Source of the DNA: Polytrichum commune
Taxonomy: Eukaryota > Streptophyta > Polytrichopsida > Polytrichales > Polytrichaceae
Assembly: GCA_950295325.1 (NCBI GenBank)
Contig: OX485809.1
Location: 18,180,144-18,244,143 of the forward strand
Direction of reading: 5' to 3'
Length of the DNA: 64,000 nt
Below, piece by piece: positions 1,072-36,350 of the stretch; position 1 is the stretch's first letter; each line of letters starts with the position of its first letter. The notes beneath the pieces are model-generated. The model had not been told where the DNA came from, ran no database searches, and worked only from the letters and a program-made list of their open reading frames with translations. Made by a program: the position numbers and the translations under genes.

Positions 1072-2256
1072 ATGGTGCAAACTAGGAGCCGATATTATCG
1101 ATCGCCATCACCAGATTACTTGGAGGACGTGCATACCACAAATCTTGAGCCAGAGGTAGATACCAACGAGGCTTTTGAGCCTATTTCGGCGTTGGACACT
1201 ACTAGTAGGCTTCGGATTTGGAGTGTCGGCACGTTCGACGAAATGGAGGACGATCGCCACAATTCAGTGCGTGATCGGTTCTCAGGTCGAGCTGGGGGCA
1301 TTTCCTTGCCCGATTGGAAACTCCGGTTTCGTACCTGGATTAAGGAGAAACGCCAAAGGTCTTCCAATTTCAATGATTGGTATGCCTTTGAACTTCTGCC
1401 TCAGCATTTGGAGTATGAGGCACTCCAAACTTACGAACGCTGGACAGAGGGTCATCAGCGACAACTTCGGGAGGTGGAGCAGTATTGGGAGGCCCGGGTT
1501 GAGCTTATTTCAGCCCTTAAAGATGGGGCGATTGCTACATTAGCTCCACCCACCTTAAAGGAGGAGGAATCGCCGGCGGAGTCTAAGGACACGGAACTGG
1601 CACTTGGGCCAATGGTGGCTAGCAGTAGCACGGCAACCCTTTCACGGGTGGCACGTGCTACACAGGCAGCATTGACGGCTGTTGGTCCACCACCTCCGTT
1701 TAATCCCCTTACTGAATTTGTCGCACATTTGGAAGTGGAGTATGGTGGGTTTTGGCGAGACCAGATGCAGCGCATCCAGGATTTCCGCCGAGAGAAGGAT
1801 GATACTCCACGGACCATGTATACGCGACTCGCGCGATTTGTTGTGGAGTCGGGAGGTGTTTTTGCTGAGAGTCAGCTTGTTAAAATCTTTTTGTATAAGA
1901 TTGACAAGCGGCTACTTGAGTTGGCATCACCTCGGATTATCCTCGATTACGAGGGCCGAGCTACGCTTGCACAAGCGTTTGCCGTGGTTGAGAGATGTGA
2001 TCGGGCTCTTTGCCAACATGATGCCACGGATATGGTATCTTGGATGACAGAGAGTCCGAAACCAAGAAGAATTGTCACAGCTACTAGTAGTTTAGCTGAG
2101 ACTCAACCCGTCAAGGAGCAAAAGATTTTGCATTGTTGGGGTTGTGGAGAAGCTGGTCATTCGAAGAATGATCCCAATTGTCCTAAGAAGAAGAAAACTC
2201 AGCCTTTGGAAAAATTAAAACAAAAGATGGAACCAGTAAAGGCAGGGGACAATTGA
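1072..2256 (+). CDS. gag: Gag polyprotein of the methyltransferase-bearing gypsy element
   Basis: A 394-residue open frame with no internal stop. The central part (roughly residues 75-330) has the look of a Ty3-type capsid region: 'FRTWIKEKR', 'YGGFWRDQMQRIQDF' and a helical 'RTMYTRLARFV' stretch. A CCHC-type zinc knuckle follows at about residues 355-370 with spacing C-x2-C-x4-H-x6-C, two residues longer than usual before the last Cys, then a lysine-rich tail. Gag would package the element's RNA into cytoplasmic particles. The frame ends in TGA at 2254-2256, while pol is open in the -1 frame across the junction. A second knuckle lies in the pol frame at 2259-2300. The intact frame contrasts with the stop-ridden pol. 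Confidence 0.8.
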   Translation: MVQTRSRYYRSPSPDYLEDVHTTNLEPEVDTNEAFEPISALDTTSRLRIWSVGTFDEMEDDRHNSVRDRFSGRAGGISLPDWKLRFRTWIKEKRQRSSNFNDWYAFELLPQHLEYEALQTYERWTEGHQRQLREVEQYWEARVELISALKDGAIATLAPPTLKEEESPAESKDTELALGPMVASSSTATLSRVARATQAALTAVGPPPPFNPLTEFVAHLEVEYGGFWRDQMQRIQDFRREKDDTPRTMYTRLARFVVESGGVFAESQLVKIFLYKIDKRLLELASPRIILDYEGRATLAQAFAVVERCDRALCQHDATDMVSWMTESPKPRRIVTATSSLAETQPVKEQKILHCWGCGEAGHSKNDPNCPKKKKTQPLEKLKQKMEPVKAGDN

Positions 2257-2435
2257 AATGTAACCATTGTGGTGGCACTAATCACGATGTGGATCATTGT
2301 TTCCAACTACATCCTGAGATGCGGCCTGCCAGTTATGTCACTGGAAAGTCTCCAAGGGAGCAGAGTCTTGAGGCTAAGGTGGCAGAGCTTGAGCAAAAGC
2401 TTAAATCTTCTGCATCTTTTGCTCAAATTTCTTAG
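2253..2435 (+). CDS. pol: N-terminal segment of pol with a second CCHC zinc knuckle
   Basis: This segment lies in the -1 frame relative to Gag and overlaps its end by a few bases. The pol frame is open from about 2186. It carries a canonical C-x2-C-x4-H-x4-C knuckle (CNHCGGTNHDVDHC) followed by a short, probably coiled, stretch (LEAKVAELEQKLKS). It ends at TAG 2433-2435, and the same frame continues as the protease and methyltransferase segment. It has no ATG start, so expression most likely depends on a -1 frameshift from Gag. I could not identify a canonical slippery heptamer in the overlap. Confidence 0.6.
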   Translation: MKCNHCGGTNHDVDHCFQLHPEMRPASYVTGKSPREQSLEAKVAELEQKLKSSASFAQIS

Positions 2436-2441
2436 CCGCAT

Positions 2442-5153
2442 GTGAGTGGTGGCACCTCGGGTTCGGACATGTATATGTTTGGAGCAGCTGGAGAGGTGGT
2501 GGCGGCGGCTTCTACTCGCTCACAAACATTGGCAGATGCGGTGGCTTCCACGAGTGGTGGTAGCAACGAGGTGCTACATCCTCGCCATGCCGGACCAGCT
2601 GATCAAATTGGTCAAGCACGTTTACCTTTGTCATTTGGATTGGTAGACACCACTGTTGTTGGGGCTAAAAACCCTGTACCTTTGAGAGATGGGGATTCCA
2701 TCTCGAAGGATGTTACGCAGGCATTGGCATACAAAATTCTCCATATGCCAATTTTCTCGGGTTCGGAGTTTATGGCTTCGGATTTCAAGCCTGCTGCAGT
2801 TTTTCATTTAGCTGGGAGAATGTTAGAAGGTAAGGCGGCTTTGCCATCCCTTCAAGTATCCCAAGCTGTGGTTGACGTACCTGTGGTTGACGAGGTGGAG
2901 GACTTAGCCAATTTACGAGCAAGTCTTGCGGATGCGGCGATCATTGCTTTTGGTAAGCAAACTGATATTCCTCCAGCATCAATTTCAGCAGTGGATACGT
3001 CATTTTCGAATTATGCGTCGGGAGCGGCATATCTTGCAGACATTTCTGCAAGGCCTGCTCGCGAACGGCATAATTTGCAACCTGGAGTTGTACGGCTGAT
3101 GAACGACAAATCTTTGTTTGTCGTTTCACGCACGGATATGCCCACTATCCGTGCTACACCACTGAGAGTTATGATGGATTCCGGTGCTCAACCGGTTATG
3201 ATTGGCAAAGGACTTGTTGACAGTCTTGGATTGACGCCAGCAAGCTTGGATCCTTGTCCATTCACTATTGTGACTTCAGTAGGGGGCACTGAACGTGCAA
3301 CAGGTTACACCAAGGCACCTTTACGTTTGATTTTTCATGTGGGGGCAGGGCCTACTTACACTCATTTGTCAATGAAGTATGTTGTTACTAATGCTACCAA
3401 CTATGATATACTTGTTGGTCAGCAAGCTCTTTACCCACTTGGCTTTGGTTTGGATAATTGGACGGAAGAGGCATGGATTAGACCGGGATGGTCCACTGGA
3501 GATGGCAGGAAGGTATTTATTCCCGTCACATTTGCAGCCACTGCTATGACTATGGTTGCGGAGGCAATGTTTGGTTGCAGCGGTTCAGTTGCAGATTTGC
3601 CTTGTGCTCCAGTTTTATTGGAGGAAACAATGGACTACACTTGTAATGCGGCAGAACAACAATTTTTACCATCTTTTCAAATTCCTGCTCGACATTTCAA
3701 GGATCCACCTCCACCATGGCGAACTCCTAGGGAGTTATCCGACCATTGTCGACACATTGTAGCGGATTTGGAGCTTGGAGAGGCACCTCCAACTTTATCC
3801 TCATTTTCTTTTGCTCAACCCATTCGTTGGCAACCATCATCTGAAGGTATTGTCCTTGTGGAGATCTTTGGAGGCATTGGCACAGGTTTGGCGGCAGTGT
3901 TGGAAGCTGGAATTACAGTTTGGCGATATATTCATGTGGACAATGGGTATGCAGCCAACAGAGCCGTCCGACACCACATCCAACAATTGTTGTTGAGATA
4001 CCCCGCACAATTGTCAGCCTCTGCCATTCATGGATGTTGTAGTCAACTTCCTCAAGATGTCACTATGATTAGTGATGAGGATTTGAGAAGGTTGGGCCAC
4101 GTGGATTTGATTCTTGCAGGATGGCCTTGTCAAGGCCATTCGCGGACAGGAACTGGCCAGGGATTGGATGATCCTAGGTCTAGTTTGTTTGCGGATTTGA
4201 CGCGATTGACGCAATGGTGGTTTACCCACCAATCAATTCCACCAGGGTACATTTTCGAAAATGTACCATTATTGGGTGATACCCGGCACAAAGTGGTGAA
4301 GGATGGTGAGTACATTAACCAAATCTTGGGTACTCCAACATTTCTGGATGCTGCATCTTTGGGATCCTTTGCTCATCGGCCTCGTTGGTTTTGGACCAAC
4401 TTGGTATCACCTCGGGTGCTTTCAGCGGCGATTGCCCGCATTCCCCGCCTTATGGATCGCAAAGTGGATGATATTTTAGATGATCATCGTGTTTCCTTGG
4501 CAGTTACCAAGGATGACACCTTGCCATTTGCATTAATTAATAAGGTGGGCATTCCAAGAGGTGCACTACCTACTTTTGTGACATATCCACAGTCTTTTGC
4601 ATTTCGATCTCGTGGACCTGGCATGGTTTGGGATTCAAAATCCCAAACTTATGAGGAGCCTACGGTAGATGAGCGGGAACGCGCCATGGGTTTTCTTACA
4701 GGTACCACGGCTGCTCACAAGCTTCAGGAAGGTCAGAGACGTTTCCTATTGGGGCAAGCTATGGATCTTAATAGCATTGTGTGGATAATTGGAATTTGTC
4801 TTGCTGCTCAACAACGTATGGATGACCAATTGCTTACTCTGAGAGCAGAGAACAATGGTCAGGGGGCAATGGAGCCGCAATTCAAGGATCACATTGAGGT
4901 CAATGACACCGAGGGATTATTTCCTTTGAAACTTCATGTTGCGGAAGAGCTTCGAGTCCAACGTGGTTTTTCGGCTTTGGCCCAAGAGTTTGGGAAGTTG
5001 GAGGCCCATAAAATGTTTCCACTTCTACTTCTTGGTGATACTTCATATGTGGATAGCTATTTAGCTACACAAACTGATTGTAGTGGAGAGGATACGCATT
5101 TGGATTCAAGTGCAGATGATGGGGGCAAAGGTGTTGCCCTCTCCACGGACTAG
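2442..5153 (+). CDS. Pol segment: aspartic protease plus C5 cytosine DNA methyltransferase
   Basis: About 903 residues, with no stop until TAG 5151. Residue numbers count from 2442. A retroviral-type aspartic protease has its catalytic DSG at 246-248 (VMMDSGAQPVMIG), with a second 'ILVGQQALYPLG' element downstream. A full C5 methyltransferase domain follows: motif I at about 470-482 (VEIFGGIGTG), the motif IV PC dipeptide with catalytic Cys at 563 (GWPCQGHS), ENV of motif VI at 606-608, an R-x-R pair of motif VIII at 646-648 in 'AHRPRWFW', and the C-terminal GF...LLG region from about 749 to 790. Motifs run in the order I to X, and the AHRxRxFW and motif I style is nearest to DNMT3-type enzymes rather than permuted DRMs. 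All key residues are present. The domain sits between protease and reverse transcriptase, an exceptional position. Confidence 0.88.
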   Translation: MSGGTSGSDMYMFGAAGEVVAAASTRSQTLADAVASTSGGSNEVLHPRHAGPADQIGQARLPLSFGLVDTTVVGAKNPVPLRDGDSISKDVTQALAYKILHMPIFSGSEFMASDFKPAAVFHLAGRMLEGKAALPSLQVSQAVVDVPVVDEVEDLANLRASLADAAIIAFGKQTDIPPASISAVDTSFSNYASGAAYLADISARPARERHNLQPGVVRLMNDKSLFVVSRTDMPTIRATPLRVMMDSGAQPVMIGKGLVDSLGLTPASLDPCPFTIVTSVGGTERATGYTKAPLRLIFHVGAGPTYTHLSMKYVVTNATNYDILVGQQALYPLGFGLDNWTEEAWIRPGWSTGDGRKVFIPVTFAATAMTMVAEAMFGCSGSVADLPCAPVLLEETMDYTCNAAEQQFLPSFQIPARHFKDPPPPWRTPRELSDHCRHIVADLELGEAPPTLSSFSFAQPIRWQPSSEGIVLVEIFGGIGTGLAAVLEAGITVWRYIHVDNGYAANRAVRHHIQQLLLRYPAQLSASAIHGCCSQLPQDVTMISDEDLRRLGHVDLILAGWPCQGHSRTGTGQGLDDPRSSLFADLTRLTQWWFTHQSIPPGYIFENVPLLGDTRHKVVKDGEYINQILGTPTFLDAASLGSFAHRPRWFWTNLVSPRVLSAAIARIPRLMDRKVDDILDDHRVSLAVTKDDTLPFALINKVGIPRGALPTFVTYPQSFAFRSRGPGMVWDSKSQTYEEPTVDERERAMGFLTGTTAAHKLQEGQRRFLLGQAMDLNSIVWIIGICLAAQQRMDDQLLTLRAENNGQGAMEPQFKDHIEVNDTEGLFPLKLHVAEELRVQRGFSALAQEFGKLEAHKMFPLLLLGDTSYVDSYLATQTDCSGEDTHLDSSADDGGKGVALSTD

Positions 5154-5165
5154 CAATCACAGGCT

Positions 5166-5894
5166 GTGCTGGCACCAATTGGCAATCCTTCTATGAAGAA
5201 GGAAACTACGGAGTTTGACGATTGGCCAATTGAAGTGGGGCCAAAGCTTACTGGTGCCGAAGCACGAAAGGTACGGGCATTTATTCGCTCTTACCGTAAT
5301 TGTTTTGCCTTTAGTCTTCATGATCTTGAAGGATATAAAGGTAAACCTGTTCGTATTCAACTCGAGGACGACCACCCTATTTTCAGACGGCCGTACAGAC
5401 TTAGTACCTCTGAAAGGTTGGGTGTTCAAACTCGATGTCAAGAGTTATTGGCAGCGGAATTGATTGAACTCTCCAATGGAGAGTATGCTTGTGCCACGGT
5501 TATGCCGTCAAAGAAGGATATCTTTGGCAACTGGACGGAAAAACGGATGTGTGGTGATTATCGTCCAGTCAACCGCAAGACCAAGTCGGATCGATATCCA
5601 ATGCCGATGCCGGAGGAGTTATTTGATGCACTAGGATTTTCTAGAATCTTCAGCACTTTGGATTTGAGGTCTGGTTATCACCAATTACCTTTGTTGTTGG
5701 GTGATCGGGTGAAGACCGCGTTTTGGGGAATTGATAAAGATGGCAAGGATCAACTTTATCATTGGAAATTTCTGCCATTTGGTCTCAAGAATGCACCAGT
5801 TGAATTTCAGCGGGTGATGGACCAATTATTGGCTGGTTTGTCGTTTGCTAGATGTTACATTGATGATGTTATCATCTTTAGTAACAGTTCATAG
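5166..5894 (+). CDS. pol: Pol segment: reverse transcriptase, fingers and palm
   Basis: In the same frame as the preceding methyltransferase segment, separated by TAG 5151. Contains classical Ty3/gypsy RT motifs: a KRMCGDYRPVNRKT block, 'STLDLRSGYHQLPL' with the first catalytic Asp, 'FLPFGLKNAPVEFQRVMD', and the YIDD catalytic box at residues 231-234. It ends at TAG 5892-5894 just after 'IIFSNSS', where related elements keep reading with an acidic or glutamine residue. Template switching and cDNA synthesis would happen in the virus-like particle. As sequenced the protein stops right after the active site. Confidence 0.85.
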   Translation: MLAPIGNPSMKKETTEFDDWPIEVGPKLTGAEARKVRAFIRSYRNCFAFSLHDLEGYKGKPVRIQLEDDHPIFRRPYRLSTSERLGVQTRCQELLAAELIELSNGEYACATVMPSKKDIFGNWTEKRMCGDYRPVNRKTKSDRYPMPMPEELFDALGFSRIFSTLDLRSGYHQLPLLLGDRVKTAFWGIDKDGKDQLYHWKFLPFGLKNAPVEFQRVMDQLLAGLSFARCYIDDVIIFSNSS

Positions 5895-5900
5895 GATCAT

Positions 5901-6215
5901 GTGAGACATTTGCAAGCGATATTTGAACGACTTCAACGGTGGGGACTCCGTTTACATCATGGGAAATGTAAGTTTTTCCATGATCAATTGCCCTATTTAG
6001 GCCACATGATTGTTCCTGGCGATCTTGGTGTGCAACAGGCGAAGGTGGATGCTTTGCACAAAATTCCCGCACCTAGTGATGTACCACGGCTTCGTGCATT
6101 TCTAGGATTGGCAAATTATTATAGGAGGTTTGTCAAAAACTTTAGTTTGATTGCCAAACCTCTTACCATTCTCACGGGGAAAGACCAACCATGGATTTGG
6201 AGTTGGGAACAATAA
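5901..6215 (+). CDS. pol: Pol segment: reverse transcriptase thumb and connection
   Basis: Same frame as the preceding RT segment. It holds the usual continuation of gypsy RT: 'ERLQRWGLRLHHGKCKFF', 'LPYLGHMI', 'RLRAFLGLANYYRRFVKNF' and 'AKPLTILTGKDQPWIW'. It ends at TAA 6213-6215 in the context 'WSWEQ-stop-HAFDTLKQ', where relatives typically read through with Gln or Glu. No indel is needed to join it to its neighbours. Confidence 0.8.
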   Translation: MRHLQAIFERLQRWGLRLHHGKCKFFHDQLPYLGHMIVPGDLGVQQAKVDALHKIPAPSDVPRLRAFLGLANYYRRFVKNFSLIAKPLTILTGKDQPWIWSWEQ

Positions 6216-6230
6216 CATGCATTTGATACA

Positions 6231-7340
6231 TTGAAGCAGAGGCTCGGTTCAGCGCCAGTGCTTCGACGCCCGGATGTGTCTAGAGCTTTTCAATTGCACA
6301 CGGATTGGAATGCAGTGGGATTGGGAGCGGTATTGACACAGAAAGATGAAGAGGGAAAGGAATATGTGGTGGCTTATGCATCTAGAAGTAATAATAGTGC
6401 TGAATCTAATTATTCTTCTTATGAAGGCGAGGCCTTGGCGGCCGTTTGGGCCATTGCACATTTTCGACCTTATTTGTATGGGCAGAAGTTTACTTTGGTG
6501 ACTGATCATCAACCTTTAAAATGGCTTATGGAATCAGATAAGCTCACCGGAAAACTTGCTAGGTGGGCATTGTTACTTCAGGAATATGATTTTGAAGTTG
6601 TTCACCGAGCAGGAATTGCCAACTTGGATGCAGACGGATTGTCTCGCAATCCAAGTCCTTCAGATGAGGATTTAACTGGGGCCAGGTGGCATGGAGATTG
6701 TGATCGTGAGGCAGTGCCGGGTTGGCATGCTGCCACGTATCTCACAATGATGTCGGGATTGGCTGCTGAAATCCTTGTGGAAGAGCAAGATGAGGAGATT
6801 GATAAATCTCTCATTGTTAGTGATGTGTGGGAAGACCAGGCGGTCTTGCACAAACTTCAACAAGGGATATTTCCTCTTGGACTATCTTCTATGGAGCGAG
6901 ATAGAGTTAGTCACCGGATAACAAGGTTTCGTTGGGCAAACAGCTTGTTATTTCGTGTGTGGCCGAACGGAACGAGGCGCATCGTTCCAAGGCCAGATCA
7001 AAGAGCTTCTTTGGTGCGGCAAGTGCACGAGGAGCTTGGACATTTTGGAGTGCGAAGGACGCATTCTATGTTGCGCAACCAATATTGGTGGACTGGTATG
7101 TATCAACAGGTTGCCACTTATGTTTCTCGGTGTGAAGTATGTGACCGGGTCAGGTCAAGTTTTAATACTTTGTCACCTCAACTTCAGCCTTTACCTATTA
7201 TGGGCTTGGGATATCGTTGGTCTCTGGATTTTGCCGGACCGCTTACTATCACTCCACGTGGTTCCAAATATGTGCTTGTAATGGTGGAGCATTTTAGTAA
7301 GTGGATTGAACTCGTAGCTCTTCCCCAAAATTCCTCATAA
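6231..7340 (+). CDS. pol: Pol segment: RNase H, integrase zinc domain and start of integrase core
   Basis: 369 residues, numbered from 6231. RNase H has its acidic residues at D25, E67 and D92 ('LHTDWNAVG', 'YEGEALAAVWA', 'LVTDHQPLKWL'). After a linker, the integrase HHCC zinc-binding domain is seen at about 268-308 (VHEELGHFG...YVSRCEVCD). The first catalytic Asp of the DDE core is in 'RWSLDFAGPLT'. The segment ends at TAA 7338-7340 within the core ('LPQNSS-stop-LAAMAFLD'). All expected catalytic residues are present. Confidence 0.85.
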   Translation: MKQRLGSAPVLRRPDVSRAFQLHTDWNAVGLGAVLTQKDEEGKEYVVAYASRSNNSAESNYSSYEGEALAAVWAIAHFRPYLYGQKFTLVTDHQPLKWLMESDKLTGKLARWALLLQEYDFEVVHRAGIANLDADGLSRNPSPSDEDLTGARWHGDCDREAVPGWHAATYLTMMSGLAAEILVEEQDEEIDKSLIVSDVWEDQAVLHKLQQGIFPLGLSSMERDRVSHRITRFRWANSLLFRVWPNGTRRIVPRPDQRASLVRQVHEELGHFGVRRTHSMLRNQYWWTGMYQQVATYVSRCEVCDRVRSSFNTLSPQLQPLPIMGLGYRWSLDFAGPLTITPRGSKYVLVMVEHFSKWIELVALPQNSS

Positions 7341-8297
7341 TTGGCGGCTATGGCATTTCTTGATCGAGTTTTGGCACGGTTTGGAGCACCTGCAAAGGTG
7401 TTGACGGATCAAGGGAGAGAATTCCTTGGATCTTTCGAGGCTTTGTGTACCAAGGCTTTGATTGATCATCGGACAACTTCCAGAGATCACCCTGAGGCAG
7501 ATGGCTTAGCTGAACGAGTTGTTCAGACAGTTAAGCGCGGTTTGCGGAAGTATGGATTGCTTCATGGCAACCATCGCGATTGGAACTTGATGTTACCATG
7601 GATAGCAATGGGTTATCGTTTCAGCAGGCAAATATCTTTGGCATCCTATAGTCTTTACCAACTCTTGTATGGACGGGAACCAATTTTACCTAGCTCGGTG
7701 CGAGAGAAATTGGCTCCCGTGGTAAACTTGGATGATCCAGATGTTTGGGCTCAATGTCTTCATGACCGAGCAGCGTTCTTCCAAAAGGCCATGCCTATGG
7801 CTATGGAGAACTTAAATATTGCTCAACATCGTGATACATTACGGTATGCCCGGATCCGCAGTGGAGCTTATCGACCTCAGGTTCGTAGATTTTCCAAGGG
7901 GGATTATGTTTACTTGCAACGGGAGGCGCCTACGACATTGGATGTCAAGGCTGAGCGCACGATTTTGCGGGTAAAAGATGTCTTGCCAAGTGGTATATTA
8001 TTGCTTGAAGGCAAAGATGGACAGGAATGTCGTGAGCATTCAAAGAATTGTGCTCCATGTCACCTTCCCATCGACGGCTCTGTGCATCCCGAGTTGGCGG
8101 TTGTACCACAGGGTCTGCCTTGTTATGTTTGTGGAGAGAAGAAAGGAGCTGCAACAATGTTATTGTGCGACCAATGTCAACGTGGATGGCACATGACATG
8201 TTTGACACCTCCCATTTTTACTCTTCCTTCTGGCAATTGGGTTTGTCCTCGTTGTCGGAAAGCCTCTCATTCCGTGGCCGTTAATGGTCATGATTGA
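7341..8297 (+). CDS. Pol segment: integrase core and C-terminal PHD finger
   Basis: 318 residues. The second and third acidic residues of the DDE triad are D23 ('VLTDQGREF') and E58 ('DGLAERVVQ'). A C-terminal integrase region with basic and hydrophobic stretches follows. Residues 261-305 form a complete C4HC3 PHD finger: Cys 261, 264, 276, 279, His 284, Cys 287, 302, 305, with the conserved Trp two residues before the last Cys pair ('GNWVCPRC'). PHD fingers read histone H3 tails, so by analogy with the chromodomain of chromoviruses it could steer integration to a chromatin state. That role is inferred. The frame terminates in TGA 8295-8297. The codon at 7341 is TTG and simply follows the in-frame stop; it is not a real start. 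Confidence 0.85.
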   Translation: MAAMAFLDRVLARFGAPAKVLTDQGREFLGSFEALCTKALIDHRTTSRDHPEADGLAERVVQTVKRGLRKYGLLHGNHRDWNLMLPWIAMGYRFSRQISLASYSLYQLLYGREPILPSSVREKLAPVVNLDDPDVWAQCLHDRAAFFQKAMPMAMENLNIAQHRDTLRYARIRSGAYRPQVRRFSKGDYVYLQREAPTTLDVKAERTILRVKDVLPSGILLLEGKDGQECREHSKNCAPCHLPIDGSVHPELAVVPQGLPCYVCGEKKGAATMLLCDQCQRGWHMTCLTPPIFTLPSGNWVCPRCRKASHSVAVNGHD

Positions 8298-8622
8298 GAA
8301 TTTTGTGGATGTTTACCTCATGTTTTAGTGGTGAAGTTGTTATTTAGTTGGTTGGAAATTTTATGGAATTAAGACCACATTGAAAGAGTTATCCAAGAAT
8401 TCAACATTAAATGGTTGAAGGCGATTAAGGATGGGGCTCAAATTGCACCCAGCCTATAGTTCTTGGATTACTTTCTCAATCATGAGTTTAATTCCTTAGA
8501 TTACCACTACCCAATTGAATATGTATAGATGTAGCAACAACTTCATCATGTTCAACAACTCTACCGATGAGTGTGTGTGTTCCTAGCCGATTGGAGGGGC
8601 TCCTTATCTGCTAGTGGGGGCA
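8298..8622 (+). other. 3' non-coding tail between pol and terminal repeats
   Basis: No coding potential seen. It ends in a GCTAGTGGGGGCA stretch (about 8610-8622) that could be a short polypurine tract priming plus-strand DNA synthesis immediately before the 107-bp repeat. Confidence 0.4.
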
Positions 8623-8729
8623 CTTGAAGAGGTGGTTGTTTAGCATTTTAGTTTGCTATTTTATTTTGCTAATTGATGTTGACGACGACACTCGATCTGT
8701 TGTGTTTAACGATCTTAGTTTACACGACA
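8623..8729 (+). repeat. 107-bp direct repeat, copy 1 (element 3' end)
   Basis: Begins CTTGAAGAGGTGGTTG and ends TTTACACGACA. It is repeated almost perfectly at 9162-9268. The two copies are 539 bp apart, start to start, and bracket the possible LTR. Confidence 0.8.
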
Positions 8730-8731
8730 GC

Positions 8732-9268
8732 TGTCACGTGAGGTGACATCGGGGGCTAAGTCACGTCAATTTAGGAGTAAATGGACTCCACTAGGAGTCC
8801 ATGTGTGTTGGGATGAGTAACGGACTCCATTGGGAGTCCTAGTTAGTTGTTCATCCACTCCATGGATGAACTCCACATAGGATTGGGGTTGTATGGAGAG
8901 GAAGGCCTCTTGACTTGCCATTGTTGTCAAGTCAAGTCTTGTGAGTGTGTTTTGAGAGAGAGAGCTTGTTGTTGCTTTTTCATGGCTATGGTGTAATAGA
9001 TTATGAGTAAAGCCTTTGCATTCTTTCTCCACCACTTGCACTCTTGGATTCTCCCTTCGTGGAGTGAGAGATAGCTTGACTCTTGTGTGTGAATTTTAGA
9101 GTTTCTTAAGCTTTGTAAGGAGACATTTTAGTTTCTTAAGCTTGGAGAGAGAAACCCTCATCTTGAAGAGGTGGTTGTTTAGCATTTTAGTTTGTTATTT
9201 TATTTTGCTAATTGATGTTGACGACGACACTCGATCTGTTGTGTTTAACGATCTTAGTTTACACGACA
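8732..9268 (+). repeat. Possible 3' LTR (TG...CA), including the second 107-bp repeat
   Basis: The segment starts TGTCACGTGAGGTGACAT and ends in ACGACA, and its last 107 bp (9162-9268) duplicate 8623-8729. A palindromic TCACGTGA near the start and repeated 'GGACTCCA...GGAGTCC' words lie in the first 120 bp. An alternative reading is that the LTR runs from 8623 to 9161 and a partial second copy follows. Without the 5' LTR in the window the two readings cannot be separated. Confidence 0.45.
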
Positions 9269-11251
9269 ATTGTATACCCTTTTAGGGACACAACTAACCC
9301 ATATAAATGTCTAAATTTTAATCAATAAATGGCTTACATTCTGACAATGGCTATCAACCATTGTAAATTGTATTATTGAGTCTCATATACGAACATATGA
9401 ATTGATCGTGGAGAATCAATAACTAGGCATGTTCAACAACTTCAACAAGTTGAAGTGGAGGCATGACCTTGTTGTAAGTGCAAGTCGGAGCATGAATGAA
9501 TTTATTGTTGTCGTAATCCACCTTGTATGGAAATATGAATACATAATACAAGCAATACACACATTTCCTTTATTTTCAAACCCACGATGACAATCCAAGC
9601 ATTGTGTAGTGTAGGATATTAGCAATGGGAACTTGATATGACTTGTCTTCCTTAAAAATGGTGTTGATAATCACTCTGTATCCTAGAAATGGAATGGCAA
9701 CAAAAGAGTATACCAACAAAACAATATACGTCCATGAATCCGACACTTTGTTGTTTGTCTTTGTGATTTGTTGTTGATGTTGCAAAGTTCTACAAAAATA
9801 TGACCAAGATCCAATATTAAGATTTTGCATACCCCAAAATGATTTTATGGCCTCCACCAACAACTTTGGATCTCCACACTTAGAAGCAACCTCCAATATA
9901 AAGGACATTTTGCATGATCTTTTCCAATGGATCCACCTTTCTAACAACATTTGTAATTGGCAATTTGTATGAAGGCTCTAATAAATTATAAATTATAGCC
10001 TCATAAAGTCATGTCATTTTGTTATTGGATTTTTGAAGCCATTTGTTTTGTAATATCTTTGCAAAATGTACACTCACAATTTATCATGGGACAATAGGGT
10101 CTCTACTCTTGCAAAAAATTTGCACAACATTCCAATTAGCTTGGGCATTGTCCCCAATGAACACCTTGAAAGTTCACGTTCTTGTCCCCAATGAACACCT
10201 TGAAAGTTCACGTTCTTGACCCCATTATTTGCCATGACCGCATTAGGGTTTTTTAAAGCAACTCCATCCTCAAATTGCATATCACAAAGCACAAATTGTG
10301 AGGACCTTGCAAAAAATGCTAGCATACACAAGGCACAACATTGTCATCCAATCTTTTAGTTGTTTAACACTAGCTTGGACCTGTGTCATCTTGGCATGTT
10401 CCACGTGTGGATATGAATTGATATCCAGACAAACCCAATCCCATATACCCATGCAACCATGTGCCCATGCATGTGCGTATGTGCAACATGCATGTATAGC
10501 CATACTCATAAGTCTCCATGACCCACCACCGTGCCCCCATAGAACAATTTAAGAAAAATAACAAATTCTCTTTTCTTTTTAATTAAATTGTCCTACTTTG
10601 TCCTATTGCCGATGCCATGTCGCCACTTTAGCTCCATGCCCACCTTTAGCACTTGTAATCCCCCACCTTTCTACATATGTTTCCTCTTTCTTTTGTCACA
10701 TGCCAAAAAATCTTGTCATGTCAAAAGCCAACAAACACTTGATGTGCTTTTTCTTTGGAAAGCCAATTAGAGATGTGTCCGTTTCTCGTAGACTCCCACC
10801 ACCATGAATACCATTGTATATAGATGGTAAAAAATGAACCACGAGTTCTCCATGTCCTCTTTAGATTGCATTTGTTTAACTAATTGGACAACACCTCTTG
10901 GAAGGCCCAATAACATTTTGTAATAAACACCTTGTATTTTGATTGCCCCGGGAACTAATTGTCTAGGATAAAATTGAGACCCCAAGAGGTCTTTAAGCAA
11001 CACAACAATACTTTCCATGGTACCCATCCCACTATGGATGAATTGCTTGACCCAACCACAAAATTACAGTAGTTGGGCAACGCAAGTGTAGTAACTTTTG
11101 TCCATAACAACCTCTAAGGATGCTCCATCAAGGTGATGGCCTTCACTGTTGATTGGTCACTTAAGAGGATAATATGACAAAAATTGTTTGTTAGCAAGCC
11201 ATGACACATAACAAAGTTTTTGGCAATAGGTGTTTAAATTTATATTTATAT
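9269..11251 (-). other. Unrecognised minus-strand ORF remnants
   Basis: Minus-strand open stretches at 9576-9950 (124 codons, with a hydrophobic 'TYIVLLVYSFVAIPFLGY' segment), 10074-10331 and 10767-11027 (86 codons). None resembles a family I can name. Together they may be fragments of one decayed element or gene. A 34-bp tandem duplication (GTCCCCAATGAAC...) lies at 10150-10217. Confidence 0.25.
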
Positions 11252-17263: not shown

Positions 17264-18267
17264 AATACCCGCCAACAAATTAATAATTAGGATGAAAAGA
17301 AAAGATTAAATGCCAACGACAACTAAGGAACCACTCCAACCCAAGCTAGGGTTGTGGGCCATAATCTCATGTCAAGCAAAACCACATAGCACATGCAAAG
17401 TCACTAACATTAGAACACAACGTCCATACGAGGCATCCACCTTGATTACCCCGATAACTATAGTGCCCACCCCGAGAGGGGTTAGTAGTCCTGCACCACT
17501 ATTATTATGCCAAGAGGGTATAATACCAAGGGTGGGTCGAACGGACATTTCAATCACGCTGACCTATGGTCAACGTTTCTTCTCTCTGCTCACATGTTCT
17601 CCACGTAAGGTTGTCACTCAATGTGCATGATGGTCACAATTGTTTTTTACAGTGGTTTACCCATGGAATGTAAGCACAATCCTTTTGTCTTTATTAATGA
17701 GTTTGATCACATTACATTTTTTCCTTTGCATGGTTATCTAATATATGTATGATTGTATTAGAATGTTTAAGTTGGTTTTAAAAAATCCATCATGGGTAGT
17801 TACTCATACCAACTAGCCATCATTAAGTTCCTATCATGCTCCCAATACTAATTGAGTGGACCAATTGTCTCATTTTAGTTGATAAGGCCATTGAGCTCTA
17901 AATCATAAATGTTGCACCTCTCAAAAGCTCATGACTATGTAAGTTCTTGATTTCTTGTATTTAGTTTCTAGGTTTTGTGTTTATGTTTAGAATGTTGAAT
18001 TTGATAAGTTGAAAGAAGGCACCCATGCAAGAGCTCACAATAATGCAAAATGTTTATATTGGTCAGCTCTTCAATGGTTTCAAATAGCCAATTGAGATTA
18101 TAGTAGAAACAACTCTTTATATATATATAGTAATGATATTGGGCATGTCAAAGGATATAGAGTTTAAGTACATGCGCTTGTAGAAAAATGTGGGTCACAA
18201 TGGCATTTGGTTTTTACATAAACACATTTGTTATTAAATCTAGAATATTTATCGTATTTATCGTATG
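17264..18267. other. Intergenic DNA downstream of the LINE
   Basis: A 106-codon plus-strand open stretch at 17310-17630 directly follows the LINE C-terminus and may be its 3' untranslated region read by chance. It matches no family I know. The remainder is AT-rich without structure I can name. Confidence 0.3.
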
Positions 18268-20420
18268 TAGTCCAATATTTTTGAAACGTATGTCTTTTAA
18301 TCGGATTAATTTTTGGGGTTCATAATTTAGTTCTTGTTTGTCATCAAAGTGTCCACAAACATGTTTATCCATGTTTGCATACATGTTAGTGGGACCTATA
18401 TGACCATTTAATGAAGTATTAGTGTTCCTAAATATGTCAATTAGTGAAATGTTTCATTGGATAGGTAATTGCAAATCACATTGCTTCTCACTTGAAAATT
18501 GGAGTTGAGATGCAAAAGTCACTTGGGGGAAAGAAATAGCAATTATTCTCTTTCCGTAATGATGCATGCTCTCCCATATTAATTAAGAATTTTGAGTTCA
18601 ATAACCAGCATAATTAGGGGGACCTTTATGACCATTTAATGAACATAAGAATCTTCAATTGCTAGGTTACACTAATAATCAACAACCTTACCATTTGTGT
18701 CATTTCATTACACTTGGCGTTCAATATCTTGGTGATATCTTAGTATGAATATGTTCAACAATGTTGTGAGGTGTATGCCAATGTTACACGATGGTGCATG
18801 ATTTGACTCAAGTTTACACAAATGACACTTGACATTAGTATGCTCAAGAATATCTTCCTCTTAAATACTAAAATGTAAACACATGACACTTGCCATTAGT
18901 ATGCTCACTAAATATTTTCCTTAGAATACTAAAACACAAAACTATCGTCTCAAGTATCCCTACGTGCTACCACAAAGTTCCAAATTTAAAACATTTCATT
19001 TTTTTAAAGTTCCTTTTATGTTGATGAATAATATAGTAATGGAAATTAATAGACGCGACACTTGGAGACCTCTAGGTATCTAGACTAGGCCCTTTGCAAA
19101 CAGTGTATGTGACACTAAATACCATGAACGGTGCAATGTGAAGTTGGCTATGGCACCGTCCTGTAACCAAGTGACCAAGGATTCAACTCTCACCATGCTT
19201 GACATGCTTGCTTGAATCTAATAGTGATAAGGATAACCCCAATGGTTGATCTCAACTGGCTAGTAGGTGGGACTTAGATGAAAGTGCATAAGCAACCATT
19301 CCTTTTTCACGACAGTGTGGATATATTCGTTAATTACCTTCTGAACTTGTTTTATGTAATTTCGAAGGGTAGGTTCAGGATGCAGGTTTTGGGTCAGTTA
19401 CATTAACACAATTGTAAACCTTAAATGAAAATGCTTGTGATGTTGAGCTCATGATCATCTGAAATGCCCCCATTAACACAACATGACATATTCAATTACC
19501 ACACAGTCAAACAACTAAAACAAAGAAATCATAAACAAGATGAGTGAGATATTGCAATTTCCAGTAAATCCCATTTGAAAACATGTGTGACTGTGACCCA
19601 TGTTTTCCATTGGTGATGCAACATCCTTCCACAACCCTCAAAGTGTCATGTATGCAGTTTCATACATATGATAAGCTCTCTGATGACATCTCAACAAGGT
19701 CGAACTAAGGACCACTTCACACACGAGCCAAGAGCCATGACCATGAAATTGTGAGAGCCCACAAGAAAGTGTCCAAAGGCCGTCCCAAGACACCTCCAAA
19801 ATCACGTAGTGTGGTCACCGATCCTCAAGTGTATTGTGAAGCCATATGTGACCGGGCCCTCAACCAAATGCTATTTCAATGAATTTCTACTCATGCCGGG
19901 CTTCACACGTGATAAAATATAATAAATCAACAATTGTGAGCGTTTGGAGTGCCATGGTCTCCCAATGGTTTTGTGTTAAGCCTCCTCCAAGAGATGGTTT
20001 TTGAAAATAGTCCAAGTGACCATGAAACATGATCCATTTGATGCCATGTAGGAATCCATGTAGACTTCACATCCATCTTGCATTCACACACTGAGTTGGT
20101 CCCTCAAGCGTAGTGTGAAGTGAACTTGGACCGGCTCCGCCTTTTCCACCATTGAGAGTGCTTGAAGTGTAATGGTCACGGGCTCTCAGTCTCGTGTGTG
20201 AAGTGGCCCTAAGTAAACATCTATGAGATGCAATCTCTTGTGCTTCCATCTGTGATACTATATGATGGCATGCTTAAAAACGAACACACACACATACAAA
20301 ACCCACAATCTGTGAAAGAAATTGATGTGGCTCTTGCTATTGTTTAGCTAGGTGGAATTTTGACCTTGGTGGGCAGTGTAACAGCTCAGATACAATGGCA
20401 ACTCAAACAATTGCTACACG

Positions 20421-23400
20421 CATATTGAATTGGATATGTGAAGGAAAATTCTGGTGAACTATGTGGTGTTAAAAGTCTTCCTCGTTGTTCCTAAATCTAG
20501 TGGGTTGTCCATGGATTGGCATATTGAATTGGATATGTGAAGGAAAATTGTGATGAACTATGTGATGTTTAAAGTCTTCCTCGTTGTACCTAAATCTAGT
20601 GGGTTGTCCATAGATTGGCATATTGAATTGGATATGTGAAGGAAAATTGTGATGAACTATGTGGTGTTAAAAGTCTTCTTGGTTGTACCTAAATCTAGTG
20701 GGTTGTCCATGGATTGGCATATTGAATTGGACTCGGGGAGGTGACTATCGGAATTTTAGAAACCACGTGAGATAAAACATAGGGTCAATTTAATTCGTTG
20801 AGGGTAAATTTTATAAGTTTGTTAGATCTACCATAGCATTGGAAATATGTCCCCAACATGATTACATGTAAAATAAGGTGTTGAATAAATCCTTCATTTT
20901 AGTAAGTAGTAGAAAAAAAATAAGGTCATAGATATTGGATCCCCCCAAATGTATGTAGTAGGATCAATAGAATAATATGGGTTTGACTACTTGGATGAAT
21001 AATGTTTAAATTCTGTCCAAATTTGAACGAAATGCGTTAGTATGGAGGGAAATGTTATGGATTTTGTTTGGGGAAGGAATGTTGCGACTTCTCAACGACC
21101 CTTGGGCTTGATTGGGGTTTGGGCAAGCATAGTGGCGCGAAAGCGGTAGGTAAGACATAGTTTTTGGAGCTTTCTTCTTTGTTCCATAGCATTCACACAG
21201 GGTGTTTCACAAGCACCGAAGATTCGGCTTAGTCCGCTCTCGTGCAGCTAAAGTCGATTTCAAACTCCACCTCTTTGATTTTCCCCTTTCATTGTCCGTT
21301 TTTGACGACATACTATTGATTTCCGACGCCCTCTTGAATGTAGGATGTAGAAAGATGAAGAGTTTCAAGATCTGAATGTGAGCGTAGAAAGATGAGATGT
21401 TGATGATTATATCAATGTTTCATCTTCTACAGAGAGAATGTTGGGTCTTGGGATGGATTGTGAAGTGTATTTTATGCAGAGCAGTACGACAACTATCTCA
21501 TTTACAGTTAAATCGGTTGTTAAGAGGACAAGGGGAAGACCTTCCAAAAATCTGCAACCTACATGTGTCCTCAATGGAGTTGACTAGGGTACGTGGTGTA
21601 TATGACAAATTCAAATAATGAGACGGAAGTTAGGTACAAGGTGGGGAAGTTGCAGGTATTCCATTGACCGTCACAATTGGGAGGTGAACAAAGGTAAATA
21701 AACAAATATTGCCGGAACCAGTTTTATGGTCTATCTTAATTATTTTAGAAAAGTCCTTGGACACTTCAAATTCAAATGTGACCACTCGGATTCTATTTGG
21801 GTTGATATAGATAGCATAATTTGCACAGTGACTATGTTATTTGATGTAGAGAAGGATGTCTTTGAGCTTGATCCGGTTGATGACAATTCCTTGAATGAGT
21901 TTGTGGAGAAATCTACATAAAATTGATAGCGATGTAGGATATTGGTTGTGACCCTATACCCATACCACAAAATAACTAATTTTGTTTTTTAGTATAGAAA
22001 TTATGAATGATTGTTGTAGAAAATATTTTCTAAGTTAGTAGGTGTTATTCAATCTATGAAATTCTCTTGCTTCATTCAAAGATGTCATTTATTAATGAGC
22101 ATTGGATGGTTGAAGTGATAAGCATGTATTCGTCTTTTCAAATGCATGAAGATGATGAGTTAACTCTCAATCCAAATTCGGAGGAAGTTAGGTATTACGC
22201 ATTCCTAAACCTTAAATTTGCACATTTTCTTGCTATTTGGTCTTGAATAGATTTTTGAATGAGCATCTTCAATTCTCTAAAGCTAAAACCTAGTTTTTAA
22301 GCCATGAAATTATGAGAATTAAGGTTGGCTTGTGTTCATTCTTCATCAGTTTTTGTTGTTGCTTTTACTTATCTTGCTAGTAGTGTCTAATATTTCAACA
22401 TTCTGTTGATTGCCTTTTTGTTATAACAACCTTTTGTAGATGATCGATTGGTGTGCTGCAACATTTGACAACCTCACCATGATAGCTAGACTCGGAGGAT
22501 TGTGCTTTGCCTTCGAAGAATACGGTGTTGGAGTGGTTGGAGACTTTGAAGGTTGCTGTCTCATGCCAATAATTAGTTTTAGTTATTCGTCATCATTGGT
22601 GTTAAACCTCTCTAAATTTTTTAGTCTTATCATGTGATTGTAGAGGATATTGACATGTACCTTAACATATGTTTTGGAGGGTGCATAGTTTTATCCTAAC
22701 CCTCCACATTGTAAATATTTGGTACAATGTTGAATGTGTTTGTGAACACAATTAAAGTAAATGTTTTCAATTTTTGTATTTAGGTTTCTTTCATTTAAAT
22801 GCAATCTTTTGTTTTGGAATATATAGTTGTACACATTTTCATGTCTTGTGATAGTTGGTTGTATTTTTTTTTGTTCTATCCGCATTTACAACTTGTTTAT
22901 GTTAGCTTCTACATTTTGTTATCTCCATGTTTATTGGTAACCTTTTAACTAGTATCAAAGTGCTATTGGTTGTGTTTTGAATGGGACTTTGAATGGTTTA
23001 GCATTGGTATAACTAATTAAAACTGATTGAATAACAAGATGGAAGATATGAAACGTTTGTTGCTAACATAATTGATTTTGCAATGCTATAGTATTCCGTC
23101 CACTATTTGGTACTTGTACGATTTATTAAAAAAAATATGGTGCCAAAAAATAGCCTCTCTAAATAATTACAAATAAATTTAGGGTGCTAAAAAATATGTC
23201 AAAGTAACTTTATATCTACAAATAGGGAGGAAAAAAATATTGAGAGGTGCATAAATATTCCCCCATAAAATACCCCATTATCGCACGTGGTTACAAAATG
23301 TAAGGGGGTGTGATCCCCCCGTGGAATTGGATATGTGAAGGAAAATTGTGATGAACTATGTGGTGTTAAAAGTCTTTTTGGTTGTACCTAAATATAGTGG

Positions 23401-30637: not shown

Positions 30638-32411
30638 TATGAGCCCAAAATGGTTGCTCGTATTTGTTTTATGCTTAAAATTTACTTGAAGTTGCAATTG
30701 ACGTCGTTATTGAAACAACAAAAAGTATTAAAAAGAGTGAGGCTTGGTGTGGAGTTATATTTTAGGCCTTAGGCTTATTTAGTGTGGTTAATTAGAGGGT
30801 TAGTGGCATTAGGGGTTGGTTTGGTTAAGTGAGTTGGTGTTTGATGAAGCAAGGGGAAGGGCCTTGGGTTTAAATGTTTGAATTTGGGCATTCCCATGTT
30901 GGTTTAAGGTTGGGGATTTAGTGGATAAGCTTGGGGGTTCCTCTCCACAGGGGTTTTTATGACCTTGAGGTTTGAGTGTGTGCTCCCTCTCTCTCTCGCG
31001 CACTAGGAGAGAGGATGAGCTAGGTTCAAGTTCGGAGATAGACTGGTGGATTCGGCCAAGACCAGTTGAGTTTTGAGTTCGGAGATAGGCTGGGGATTCG
31101 GCCAAGACCAGCTGGGTTTTGAGTTCGGAGATAGACTGGTGGATTCGGCCAAGACCAGCTAGGTTTTGAGTTTGGAGATAGACCGGGGATTCGGCCAAGA
31201 CCAACTGGGTTTTGAGTTCGGAGATAGACTGGGGATTCGGCCAAGACCAGCTGGGTTTTGAGTTCGGAGATAGATTGGGGATTCGGCCAAGACCAGCTGA
31301 GTTTTGAGTTCGGAGATAGACTGGGGATTCGGCCAAGACCAGCTGAGTTTTGAGTTCGGAGATAGACTGGTGGATTCGGCCAAGACCAGCTGGGTTTGGA
31401 GTTCGGAGATAGATTGGGGATTCGGCCAAGACCAGTTGGGTTTTGAGTTCGGAGATAGACTGGGGATTCGGCCAAGACCAGCTGGGTTCAAGTTCGGAGA
31501 TAGACTGGTGGATTCGGCCAAGACCAGCTGAGTTTTGAGTTTGGAGATAGACTAGTGGATTCGGCCAAGACCAGCTGGGTTTGGAGTTCGGAGATAGATT
31601 GGGGATTCGGCCAAGACCAGCTGGGTTTTGAGTTCGGAGATAGACTGGGGATTCGGCCAAAACCAGCTGGGTTTTGAGTTCGGAGATAGACTGGGGATTC
31701 GGCCAAGACCAGCTGGGTTCAAGTTTGGAGATAGATTGGTGGATTCGGCCAAGACCAACTGAGTTTTGAGTTTGGAGATAGACTGGTGGATTCGGCCAAG
31801 ACCAGCTGGATTTTGAGTTCAGAGATAGATTGGGGATTCGGCCAAGACCAGTTGGGTTTTGAGTTCGGAGATAGACTGGGGATTTGGCCAAGACCAGTTG
31901 GGTTCAAGTTCGGAGATAGACTGGGGATTCGGCCAAGACCAGCTGGGTTCAAGTTCGGAGATATACTAGGGATTCGGCCAAGACCAGCTGGGTTTAACTT
32001 TTTGGGCTAGTCCCGGGTCCACACTAATTACCACAGTTGAATTAAGGTGGGGGTGGTAGTGGCATCCACCTTGTGACACACACATAGGCTAGTTAGTTAA
32101 GATTGGCATATGGGGTTATTCTAAGTAATTAGTTAATCAGTAAGTAGGAAAACCACAACATGCTAGGTGGTGGCATTAAGTATTCATTAGATGTGTGGGT
32201 TTTACGATGGGGTGTATTACGGGGGTGACATTAGAGTAGAGCGTTTTTCAACGCTTGTATCCTCGCCATGGAATAAATTGGGGTGCCAAAATTGATGTGA
32301 GATGCAATGGGGGTTAATGATGTGGGAAGATTTAATGAGGCTAGCATGAATGTGAGCCCCGCGCCCTCACCCGGACTACGACGCATGAGGGGTGGGTGGT
32401 TTGGCCTCACA
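30638..32411 (+). mobile_element. 1774-bp solo LTR with a perfect 5-bp target duplication
   Basis: The plus-strand termini are TATGAGCCCAAAATGG (TG mutated to TA) and GGTTTGGCCTCACA. CCTGG flanks both ends (30633-30637 and 32412-32416). It holds an AGTATTAAAAAGAG box about 85 bp in, a 46-bp minisatellite, the family hairpin AGCGTTTTTCAACGCT (32240-32255) and AATAAA (32272-32277). It is inserted in the opposite orientation inside another LTR of the same family. Confidence 0.85.
31024..31996. repeat. Minisatellite, 21 copies of a unit of about 46 bp
   Basis: The unit contains GTTCGGAGATAGACTGG, GGATTCGGCCAAGACCAGCT and GGGTTTTGA. I count 21 occurrences of the GGCCAAGACCA core or a one-base variant. 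Length classes of about 44, 46 and 48 bp arise from GTTCAAGTT/TTTTGAGTT and GG/GGTGG variants. On the minus strand the array is open in all frames, producing ORFs up to 360 codons (30809-31891) that are repeat artefacts unless shown to be translated. Confidence 0.92.
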
Positions 32412-34011: not shown

Positions 34012-35193
34012 TCAAGCTCGGTATTCCTTGCACCGACTACCTGCTGTGCGTGTGGAAAAGTTCTCCCCATTTAAGGTTTCTAGTTGCAATGAGTTATTTG
34101 GTAATGCTTCCCGGACCAGATAAGGTCCCAACCAGCATGCATCAAACTTACCCAGGAAGTCAAACTTCCTAGCATCCTGAATCATCACCATCATACATGG
34201 CCTCAGTGCCTTTTTCTTGTGTCTTTTGTCGAAGGTGATTTTCCTTCGGCGTTGGATGGCCTCGATATGTTGAGCCGCCATCCTCATCCTCTCGTTCAGT
34301 TCTTCTAGCGTCGTCAGTCGATTTCTCAATGATTGACTATCCGTAATGCGTGACTTCATAGCGATACGCAACGACTTGACTTCGAATTCAATGGATAGCG
34401 TAGCCTCCAACCCATACACTAAGGAGAATGGAGTCACTTGCGTTGTCACTTTAAAGGTTGTGCGATATGCCCATAATGCCGCTGTTAACTTGACGTCCCA
34501 ATCCCTCTTCGAATCCAACATTGTTTTTCGAAGGATGCTCACCAAGGTCCCGTTAACAAGCTCCGTTTGACCATTGGTCTGCGGGTGATCAGGAGTTGTT
34601 TTCCTGTGGTCTATCTTAAATCTGGCGGTCAGGTCTTGAAACATCTCGTTCAAGAAGTGGGTGCCCCTATCGCTAACTAGAATCTTGGGACACCCGAATC
34701 TTGAGATGATGTTTTCATACATGAATGTGGCGGCATTGGCGGCCGTGTTTGTCTTCACCGCCTTAGCTTCCGCCCACTTAGTTAAGTACTCGGTTGCTAC
34801 TATGATATAAGCCATGCCTTTAGAAGAATGGGGGTGAACCTCACCAACATAATTTATTCCCCACTTCTTAAAATGAACTAGAGGTCAGGACACGTGAAGA
34901 CGCATCTTCATACGGAGATCATTCCTTGCATACCTCTGGCAAGCATTACACTTCCGGACATATTCTTTAGCATCCTTGAACAAGTCCGACCAAAAGTAAC
35001 ATGCTCTAAGTACCTTTTGTCCAGTAAGCAATCCTAAGAAATGCCCACCACATCCACTATCATAGCAAATTGCCAATATCGAGGGGGCCTCTATCTCCGA
35101 CACACATCGCCGTAAGATCCCATCCATTCCCCTCCGAAATAGTCTATGGCCTATCAGTGTATAGTGCCGACTATTAACTCTTACCTTTATCAT
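34012..35193 (-). pseudogene. pol: Gypsy integrase, zinc domain and core
   Basis: Two segments in one frame, 35193-34885 and 34815-34012, separated by TGA 34887-34885. The zinc domain shows 'CYDSGCGGHF...CNACQRYA', where family members have His in place of the Tyr, so the first zinc-binding His seems lost. In the core, the first catalytic Asp is replaced by Asn ('KWGINYVGEV'), while the second ('LVSDRGTHF') and the Glu ('NGQTELVNG') are kept. It ends with the conserved 'GSRCKEYRA' and a stop at 34012. Two key residues are mutated, so the enzyme would be inactive. Confidence 0.85.
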
Positions 35194-35199
35194 TTCCTC

Positions 35200-36342
35200 C
35201 TATGTCCGATCTCCAATCAACTGTTGAGTCATGAGGAACTCCACAATGCCCGAGTACCAATCCGCCCAAGCTATCACCAAGAAAAGGTTGTCGTCCCTCA
35301 AACTGTCATCCACTGGACTGTCGCCCACCTCATTAGACAACCTTGATAAATGGTCAGCTTGCAGGTGCATACGACCAGATTCATATTCAACCGTATAATC
35401 GAACTCCTCCAAGAGTAGCACCAATCTAGCCAATCTACAACTCAACTCCGCCTTGTTGACTAAGAATTTGATTGCCATGTGATCAACGAAGAAAACCACC
35501 GGATTACATATGAGGTAATGGCGAAATTTCTTGACTGAGAAGACCATGGCCAAGCACTCCCTCTCCGTGGTAGAATAGTTTTTCTCTGCCGGTGTCAACT
35601 GCCGGCTTGCATACGCCACTGGTTGATCCTTCTCATTTTCTCCCATTGTTTGACATAATGCACTACCTACAGCTACTGAGCTAGCATCGCAAAACACATG
35701 AAAAGGTTTTCCCCAGTCCGGTGGAACCAACACCGGGTAGGTGCTCAATTTATCCCTCAACTCCTCGAATGCCCTTTGGCAAGTCTCTGTCCATTCAAAC
35801 CTATAATCTTTCCTAAGCAACTGCGTAATGGGAACAACTATCTTGGAATAATTTGGAATCAACTCACTATACCAACCCACATGTCCTAACAACTTGGCTA
35901 TTTCCCTAGCATTTGTGGGAGTGGACAATTCATCTATTACAGCTATCTTCTCGGGATCCGGCTCTCTTTCCTTCTCACTCATAACATAATCCAATAATAC
36001 CCTCTTTTGAACACCCAAGAATATCTTGTCCGGATTCAAGGCGAGCTGCATTTTTCTACACCTAATCAAAGCCTCCCTAACACACTCTAAATGTGAACTA
36101 GCGCTAGACTGAGTGCTAAAATCATCTACGAAAACAGTCATAGACTTGTACAACAAGTCCGTAAAAATATATATGACCAACCTTTGGAATGTCGCCGGCG
36201 CATTATATAAACCAAAAGGCATGACATTCCGAACAAAGGTGCCCCAAGGAGTGGTGAAGGCCGTCTTATGGATGTCTTGAAGAGCGATGGAAATTTGATT
36301 GTAGCCCGCATACCCGTTCATGAACGTATATCTTGCATGACC
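35200..36342 (-). pseudogene. pol: Gypsy reverse transcriptase catalytic part and RNase H
   Basis: From 36342 the RT resumes with 'GHARYTFMNGYAGYNQ', followed by 'FGLYNAPATFQRLV', the catalytic 'VFVDDFS' box (about 36137-36121), 'LLGHVGWYSELIP' and then RNase H ('HVFCDASSVAVGSALC', 'ERECLAMVFSVKKFRHYL', 'FFVDHMAIKFL'). The frame ends at TAG 35202-35200. The next segment is in the same frame. RT and RNase H catalytic residues appear intact in this part, but the protein cannot be made because of the upstream insertion and stops. Confidence 0.85.
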
Positions 36343-36350
36343 ACCTACCT

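Follow-up and report, generated by a model that had tools for sequence, protein, structure and literature searches.

Retrotransposons that carry a cytosine methyltransferase have been published from dinoflagellates and charophytes. In the main text of de Mendoza et al. 2018 (PMC5890265), gypsy elements of Klebsormidium nitens bear a DNMT3 domain and have repeats in the order A-coding-B-A-B; the enzymes of the SymbioDIRS elements methylate CG in yeast, where no signal was obtained from the K. nitens domain. Passages of a 2025 survey (PMC12344493) also report some DNMT3 that lie within retrotransposons. Here we analyze 64,000 nucleotides from the moss Polytrichum commune (contig OX485809.1, positions 18,180,144 to 18,244,143; "the window"). 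One copy of a Ty3/gypsy-derived element, whose 5' start lies 665 bases upstream of the window, occupies the window's first 9.3 kb and encodes a DNMT3-type methyltransferase. An initial annotation had recognized the methyltransferase and had cited the precedents correctly.

A DNMT3-type methyltransferase ahead of the reverse transcriptase

The methyltransferase is encoded by an open reading frame (ORF) in frame 0 (2436-5153, stop to stop; GTG start at 2442), along with a spacer and a protease. Past the TAG at 5151, a second ORF (ORF2) keeps this frame to 8297 (5154-8297) and encodes reverse transcriptase (RT), RNase H, and integrase, with a PHD finger behind them. The initial annotation placed a complete C5 methyltransferase, with this GTG start, in a gypsy element, and proposed a check against PF00145. 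That match is significant (2.1e-10; 41 bits versus a cut-off of 22; strongest at residues 540-620), and the C5 motifs are colinear (FGGIGTG, GWPCQGHS, FENV, AHRPRWFWTN, and LLGQAMD). The annotation was also right that the enzyme lies between protease and RT and in frame with them, but RT is not in the same ORF, as a conserved UAG intervenes.

In profile comparisons, DNMT3A scored 81 bits and DRM 34 bits, and the nearest folds to the modelled domain are DNA methyltransferases. Judged by profile and fold, this is a genuine DNMT3-type methyltransferase. A plant DRM-type enzyme was ruled out by the colinear, unrearranged motifs and by a DRM profile score far under that of DNMT3A.

A related eukaryotic retrotransposon (L053; CADCWO010000201.1, 1-9285) is filed under a Synechococcales metagenome-assembled genome. 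Its contig, which closes on itself via a 127-base overlap, is evidently a contaminant there.

The catalytic cysteine is found in 174 of 176 aligned domains (the other 2 have gaps), the glutamate of ENV in 176 of 176, and the two arginines in 173 and 175. Between the methyltransferases of the window (or L079), L053, and L118, synonymous differences are near saturation (pS, the proportion of differing synonymous sites, 0.73-0.77), while the nonsynonymous proportion (pN) is 0.19-0.23; the ratio of nonsynonymous to synonymous rates (Ka/Ks) is 0.10 in the only computable pair. Among these same elements, amino acid identity is 63-70% for the methyltransferase versus 84-88% for RT, so the methyltransferase evolves faster. 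In a second subfamily of the host genome (11 copies, picked from RT matches), its Ka/Ks is 0.22. On this sequence evidence, the catalytic residues are retained and the enzyme is under purifying selection.

A conserved stop codon follows the methyltransferase

In 17 relative proteins with a matching tail, ORF1 ends where the window has the TAG at 5151. This codon begins the sequence UAG CARYYA, which passages of PMC5382211 describe as the signal for type I readthrough in tobamoviruses, among others. TAG CARYYA is present in 54 of 56 copies of subfamily 1, to which the window belongs (three sets: the window and 19 others; 20; and 16). The exceptions are L143, where the motif is missing, and L094, which is unaligned there; an insertion may have divided a single element into L094 and L129. 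In subfamily 2 (enzyme identity about 60-63%), the frame runs into TAG CAATTA in 10 of 11 copies, and L120 reaches a different stop earlier. L053, from a separate source, has TAG CAATCA. The single motif base that varies among the three lineages preserves CARYYA; 43% of the surrounding sites are identical in all three. ORF1 and ORF2 share a frame across the window, L053, and subfamily 2, and L053 has no methionine in residues 1-80 of ORF2. Close relatives encode gag, protease, and methyltransferase in a single ORF1, so the methyltransferase travels with gag.

Element ends and target site duplications

The element has two kinds of repeats. X (438 bp, beginning TGTCACG) lies at the 5' end, and 3' of the coding region the order is Y (about 107 bp), X, Y. 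This X-coding-Y-X-Y order corresponds to the DIRS-like arrangement A-coding-B-A-B described for K. nitens and Symbiodinium. The 5' end carries X in the window copy and in 14 of 16 further copies and Y in none of them (the stretch for L080 stops within X). The element is bounded by TG...CA, and an exact 4-bp duplication flanks 12 of the 13 copies with both ends; the remaining one is mismatched at one base. When flanks were paired between different copies, 0 of 156 pairs had a 4-bp duplication. The Y/X junction reads ACACGACA-GC-TGTCACG: two bases link the element's own 3' terminus to its own 5' terminus. L053 has an identical junction. By analogy, the junction looks like a retained record of joined ends, as in DIRS elements but with a DDE integrase. 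L053 also has a purine-rich tract similar to AGTGGGGGCA.

We rejected membership in DIRS/PAT because of the duplications and because the element has a DDE integrase instead of a tyrosine recombinase. DIRS/PAT elements are not known to make target site duplications. No phage-integrase (tyrosine recombinase) family was among the profile matches of the window, whose integrase matches are PF17921 and PF00665. Split repeats are regarded as a hallmark of elements with a tyrosine recombinase, but the 4-bp duplications suggest that they can accompany a DDE integrase.

The window copy (Table 1) is decayed, with a break in the gag/protease frame near 2214-2256 and in-frame stops at 2433, 5892, 6213, and 7338. 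The conserved stop, the split repeats with their 4-bp duplication, the PHD finger, and the broken state of this copy had no place in the initial annotation.

Table 1. Features of the Polytrichum element, in window coordinates unless noted
Feature	Position	Strand	Remarks
Repeat X, copy 1, just upstream of window	G000:C7:18179478-18179915 (window -665 to -228)		98.9% identity to copy 2
gag ORF, CCHC zinc knuckle 1	1072..2256	+	394 amino acids from ATG; frame lost versus close relatives
Frame 0 stretch with zinc knuckle 2, ending at in-frame TAG	2187..2435	+	TAG is a copy-specific lesion
Aspartic protease domain	3063..3527	+	PF13650 0.0013, weak, under family cut-off; family hidden Markov model
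DNMT3-type C5 cytosine methyltransferase domain	3840..4811	+	catalytic Cys codon 4128-4130
ORF1 C-terminal tail	4812..5150	+	model: helices to about model residue 451; final 25 residues low confidence
Conserved stop and type I readthrough motif, TAG CAATCA (UAG CAR YYA)	5151..5159	+	
Reverse transcriptase	5154..6212	+	PF00078 1.9e-17 and 4.8e-6, two pieces; stop 5892-5894 is a copy-specific lesion
RNase H	6216..6600	+	PF17917 1.5e-38
DDE integrase and H2C2 zinc domain	6819..7991	+	PF17921 2.1e-18; PF00665 0.0017 and 0.00031, two pieces, both under cut-off; stop 7338-7340 is a copy-specific lesion
PHD finger, 3' of integrase	8121..8255	+	PF00628 1e-10
Purine-rich tract (like a polypurine tract) AGTGGGGGCA, directly 5' of first Y	8613..8622	+	read from sequence
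Repeat Y, copy 1 (B of A-coding-B-A-B), including GC of Y/X junction	8623..8731	+	
Repeat X, copy 2 (A)	8732..9166	+	
Repeat Y, copy 2	9162..9268	+	ends ...ACACGACA, the element's 3' terminus
4-bp target site duplication ATTG	9269..9272	+	ATTG also directly before 5' X

A large and recently active family

We scanned the host genome (408 Mb, 64 contigs) and found at least 587 candidate places for the methyltransferase. At least 116 of these were scored, with 86-97% identity to the window's enzyme in every case except the window's own place; 15 of them match without a stop over a frame of 1,386 codons. RT has at least 1,433 candidate places, with at least 150 scored, including the second subfamily at 85-87% identity. 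The view that such elements are "very rare" is not supported by these numbers, nor by the relatives in liverworts, Closterium, and chlorophytes described below.

Within each of 11 copies in which both X repeats are complete (the window, L063-L079, and their 5' stretches), the two repeats are 0 to 5 substitutions apart, and in 5 of the 11 pairs there are none (one gap column each). As the repeats are nearly identical within copies, the family has moved recently, and the window element is a decayed but recently inserted copy. The 19 substitutions in these pairs are all transitions, with zero transversions.

The initial annotation had suggested looking for copies without the domain. In 16 RT-selected copies from outside the methyltransferase list, the domain match is full-length in 10, partial in 4, and missing in 2, so that these 16 revealed no family lacking the domain. 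The two copies have no methyltransferase match in the 1.5 kb before RT; their RTs share 98% and 96% identity with that of the window, and they look like single losses.

Across 14 copies, C-to-T change is raised in CG (0.016), CHG (0.017), and CHH (0.012) versus A/T transitions (0.002); CHG transversions are likewise somewhat raised (0.006). By this pattern the copies are probably methylated, be it by the host or by the element's own enzyme.

Relatives in liverworts, Closterium, and chlorophytes

Three protein searches yielded 203 related proteins. Some have an order like the window's (methyltransferase before RT, or gag-protease-methyltransferase), with Marchantia polymorpha, Calypogeia fissa, and Closterium among the named hosts; others have RT-RNase H-methyltransferase-integrase-PHD, with named hosts that include Haematococcus lacustris and Monoraphidium neglectum. 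(Named hosts are a minority of the matches; the taxonomic lineages of Haematococcus and Calypogeia were checked.) With 6 rows for the window, L053, and L118 added, 60 have the first order and 122 the second, and 27 are unassigned. Where motif IV reads ECQ (60 domains), 50 have the enzyme behind RNase H. In both trees the second order falls in a single clade, with a root that is not firm. The simplest interpretation, though unproven, is that the two orders share an origin and that the domain moved once. The relatives in chlorophytes and liverworts are relevant to the published view that the enzyme was acquired in the K. nitens lineage. The name K. nitens is absent among the matches of these searches, and the likeness to KnitGypsy-Dnmt3 is known here from its published description.

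A proposed role for the enzyme, and alternatives

We propose, as the probable though not secure explanation, that this is a Ty3/gypsy family in which a DNMT3-type methyltransferase is a conserved part, a leaky stop doses the enzyme with Gag, and the element's own complementary DNA (cDNA) is methylated. A minority of ribosomes would pass the UAG, so that the methyltransferase would reach levels like those of Gag and would be packaged into the particle, and RT and integrase would be a rare readthrough product. The enzyme would methylate cytosines of the cDNA while in the particle or in the pre-integration complex, and the methylated new DNA would resemble host DNA; the PHD finger may steer the integrase to chromatin.

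Several observations weigh against this proposal. Motif IV is GWPCQ in the window versus GSPCN in DNMT3A, and in 60 of the 176 domains its proline is replaced by glutamate, with the cysteine retained. In subfamily 1 (20 copies, many of them decaying), the methyltransferase has a Ka/Ks of 0.44, the highest of six pieces (RNase H, 0.15). The stop motif is not exceptional within this subfamily: variation is as low in 13 of 91 nine-base windows. ORF2 has an early methionine at residue 14 in the window and residue 5 in L118, so reinitiation is excluded only for copies like L053. In relatives P0165-P0167, no stop interrupts the frame between gag and integrase, so the leaky stop is a trait of one branch. 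Host silencing accounts for the excess of C-to-T change in all three contexts no less well than self-methylation does. Finally, the inactivity of the K. nitens enzyme in yeast is, in the main text of PMC5890265, called inconclusive by its authors.

A broader version is more tentative. A split-repeat DDE lineage might extend across green plants, with a particle methyltransferase at structural dose via a leaky stop and marking of cDNA before integration as epigenetic camouflage. In chlorophytes the enzyme lies beside the integrase, so selection might keep its link with reverse transcription and integration rather than its position in the protein.

The enzyme might instead act after integration, methylating nearby or genomic DNA and dampening the element, so that the host tolerates many copies. 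Many copies do coexist, and C-to-T change is raised in all contexts, as methylated elements would show. However, host methylation explains these changes equally well, and encoding the enzyme with gag, upstream of the stop, would give more enzyme, not less. Nor has the family been held back lately, because 5 of 11 dated copies show no substitutions between their repeats. We consider such self-restraint unlikely.

Another doubtful alternative, of similarly low probability, is that the UAG is a plain stop and that ORF2 is made by reinitiation, by splicing, or from a separate transcript. Marchantia gene models P0031 and P0035 span the stop region as if spliced, which could be an artefact of gene prediction, and the early methionines of the window and L118 would also fit. 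The frame shared by the window, L053, and subfamily 2, the preservation of the type I motif through an internal base change, and the lack of an early methionine in L053 argue against it. Least likely is that RNA is the domain's substrate, or that in the particle it serves as a scaffold or nucleic-acid chaperone, with DNA methylation secondary or absent: its encoding with the gag zinc knuckles, the altered motif IV, and the inactivity of the K. nitens domain on DNA in yeast (main text of PMC5890265) favor this, but the near-invariant cysteine, ENV glutamate, and arginines would be unneeded in a scaffold, and the nearest folds are DNA methyltransferases.

Hosts usually turn DNA methylation against transposons, and here a young and numerous element keeps its own de novo enzyme. 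With the dose of enzyme apparently set along with gag, the function of retrotransposon-borne methyltransferases, in the particle or on chromatin, becomes directly testable.

Other features of the window

A second Ty3-like element (RT, RNase H, integrase) lies on the minus strand at 34012-36348, with no methyltransferase match among the proteins compared. A direct repeat of 2.28 kb with 98.8% identity (18267-20521 and 44649-46925) is perhaps another transposable element. In a tandem repeat of about 46 bases (30809-31995, minus strand), a frame of 364 codons stays open across many units.

Comparison with known systems

Our literature search, with most subscription journals outside it, found no paper on a leaky stop in such elements or on the liverwort or chlorophyte families. 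As in tobamovirus type I readthrough (passages of PMC5382211), the element has UAG with CARYYA and a polymerase ORF in frame; here the motif lies at the methyltransferase/RT border of a retrotransposon and is known from sequence alone. The catalytic domains of DNMT3A and DNMT3B are about 25% identical to the window's, which differs in motif IV and resides in a retrotransposon ORF.

The comparison with the elements of de Mendoza and colleagues relies on the main text of PMC5890265. KnitGypsy-Dnmt3 shares the Gypsy domains (RT, RNase H, DDE integrase), an unrearranged DNMT3-type enzyme, the A-coding-B-A-B repeats, and purifying selection on the enzyme. In KnitGypsy-Dnmt3 the enzyme is in the pol ORF, whereas in the Polytrichum family it is in ORF1, before a conserved UAG CARYYA. 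For the Polytrichum family we also find a PHD finger, TG...CA ends, and flanking 4-bp duplications; that main text does not contain the words "PHD" or "readthrough," and its only passage on target site duplications is about a LINE. SymbioDIRS-Dnmt3 of Symbiodinium is likewise a split-repeat retrotransposon with a DNMT3-type enzyme, but it has a tyrosine recombinase, whereas the Polytrichum element has a DDE-type integrase and 4-bp duplications.
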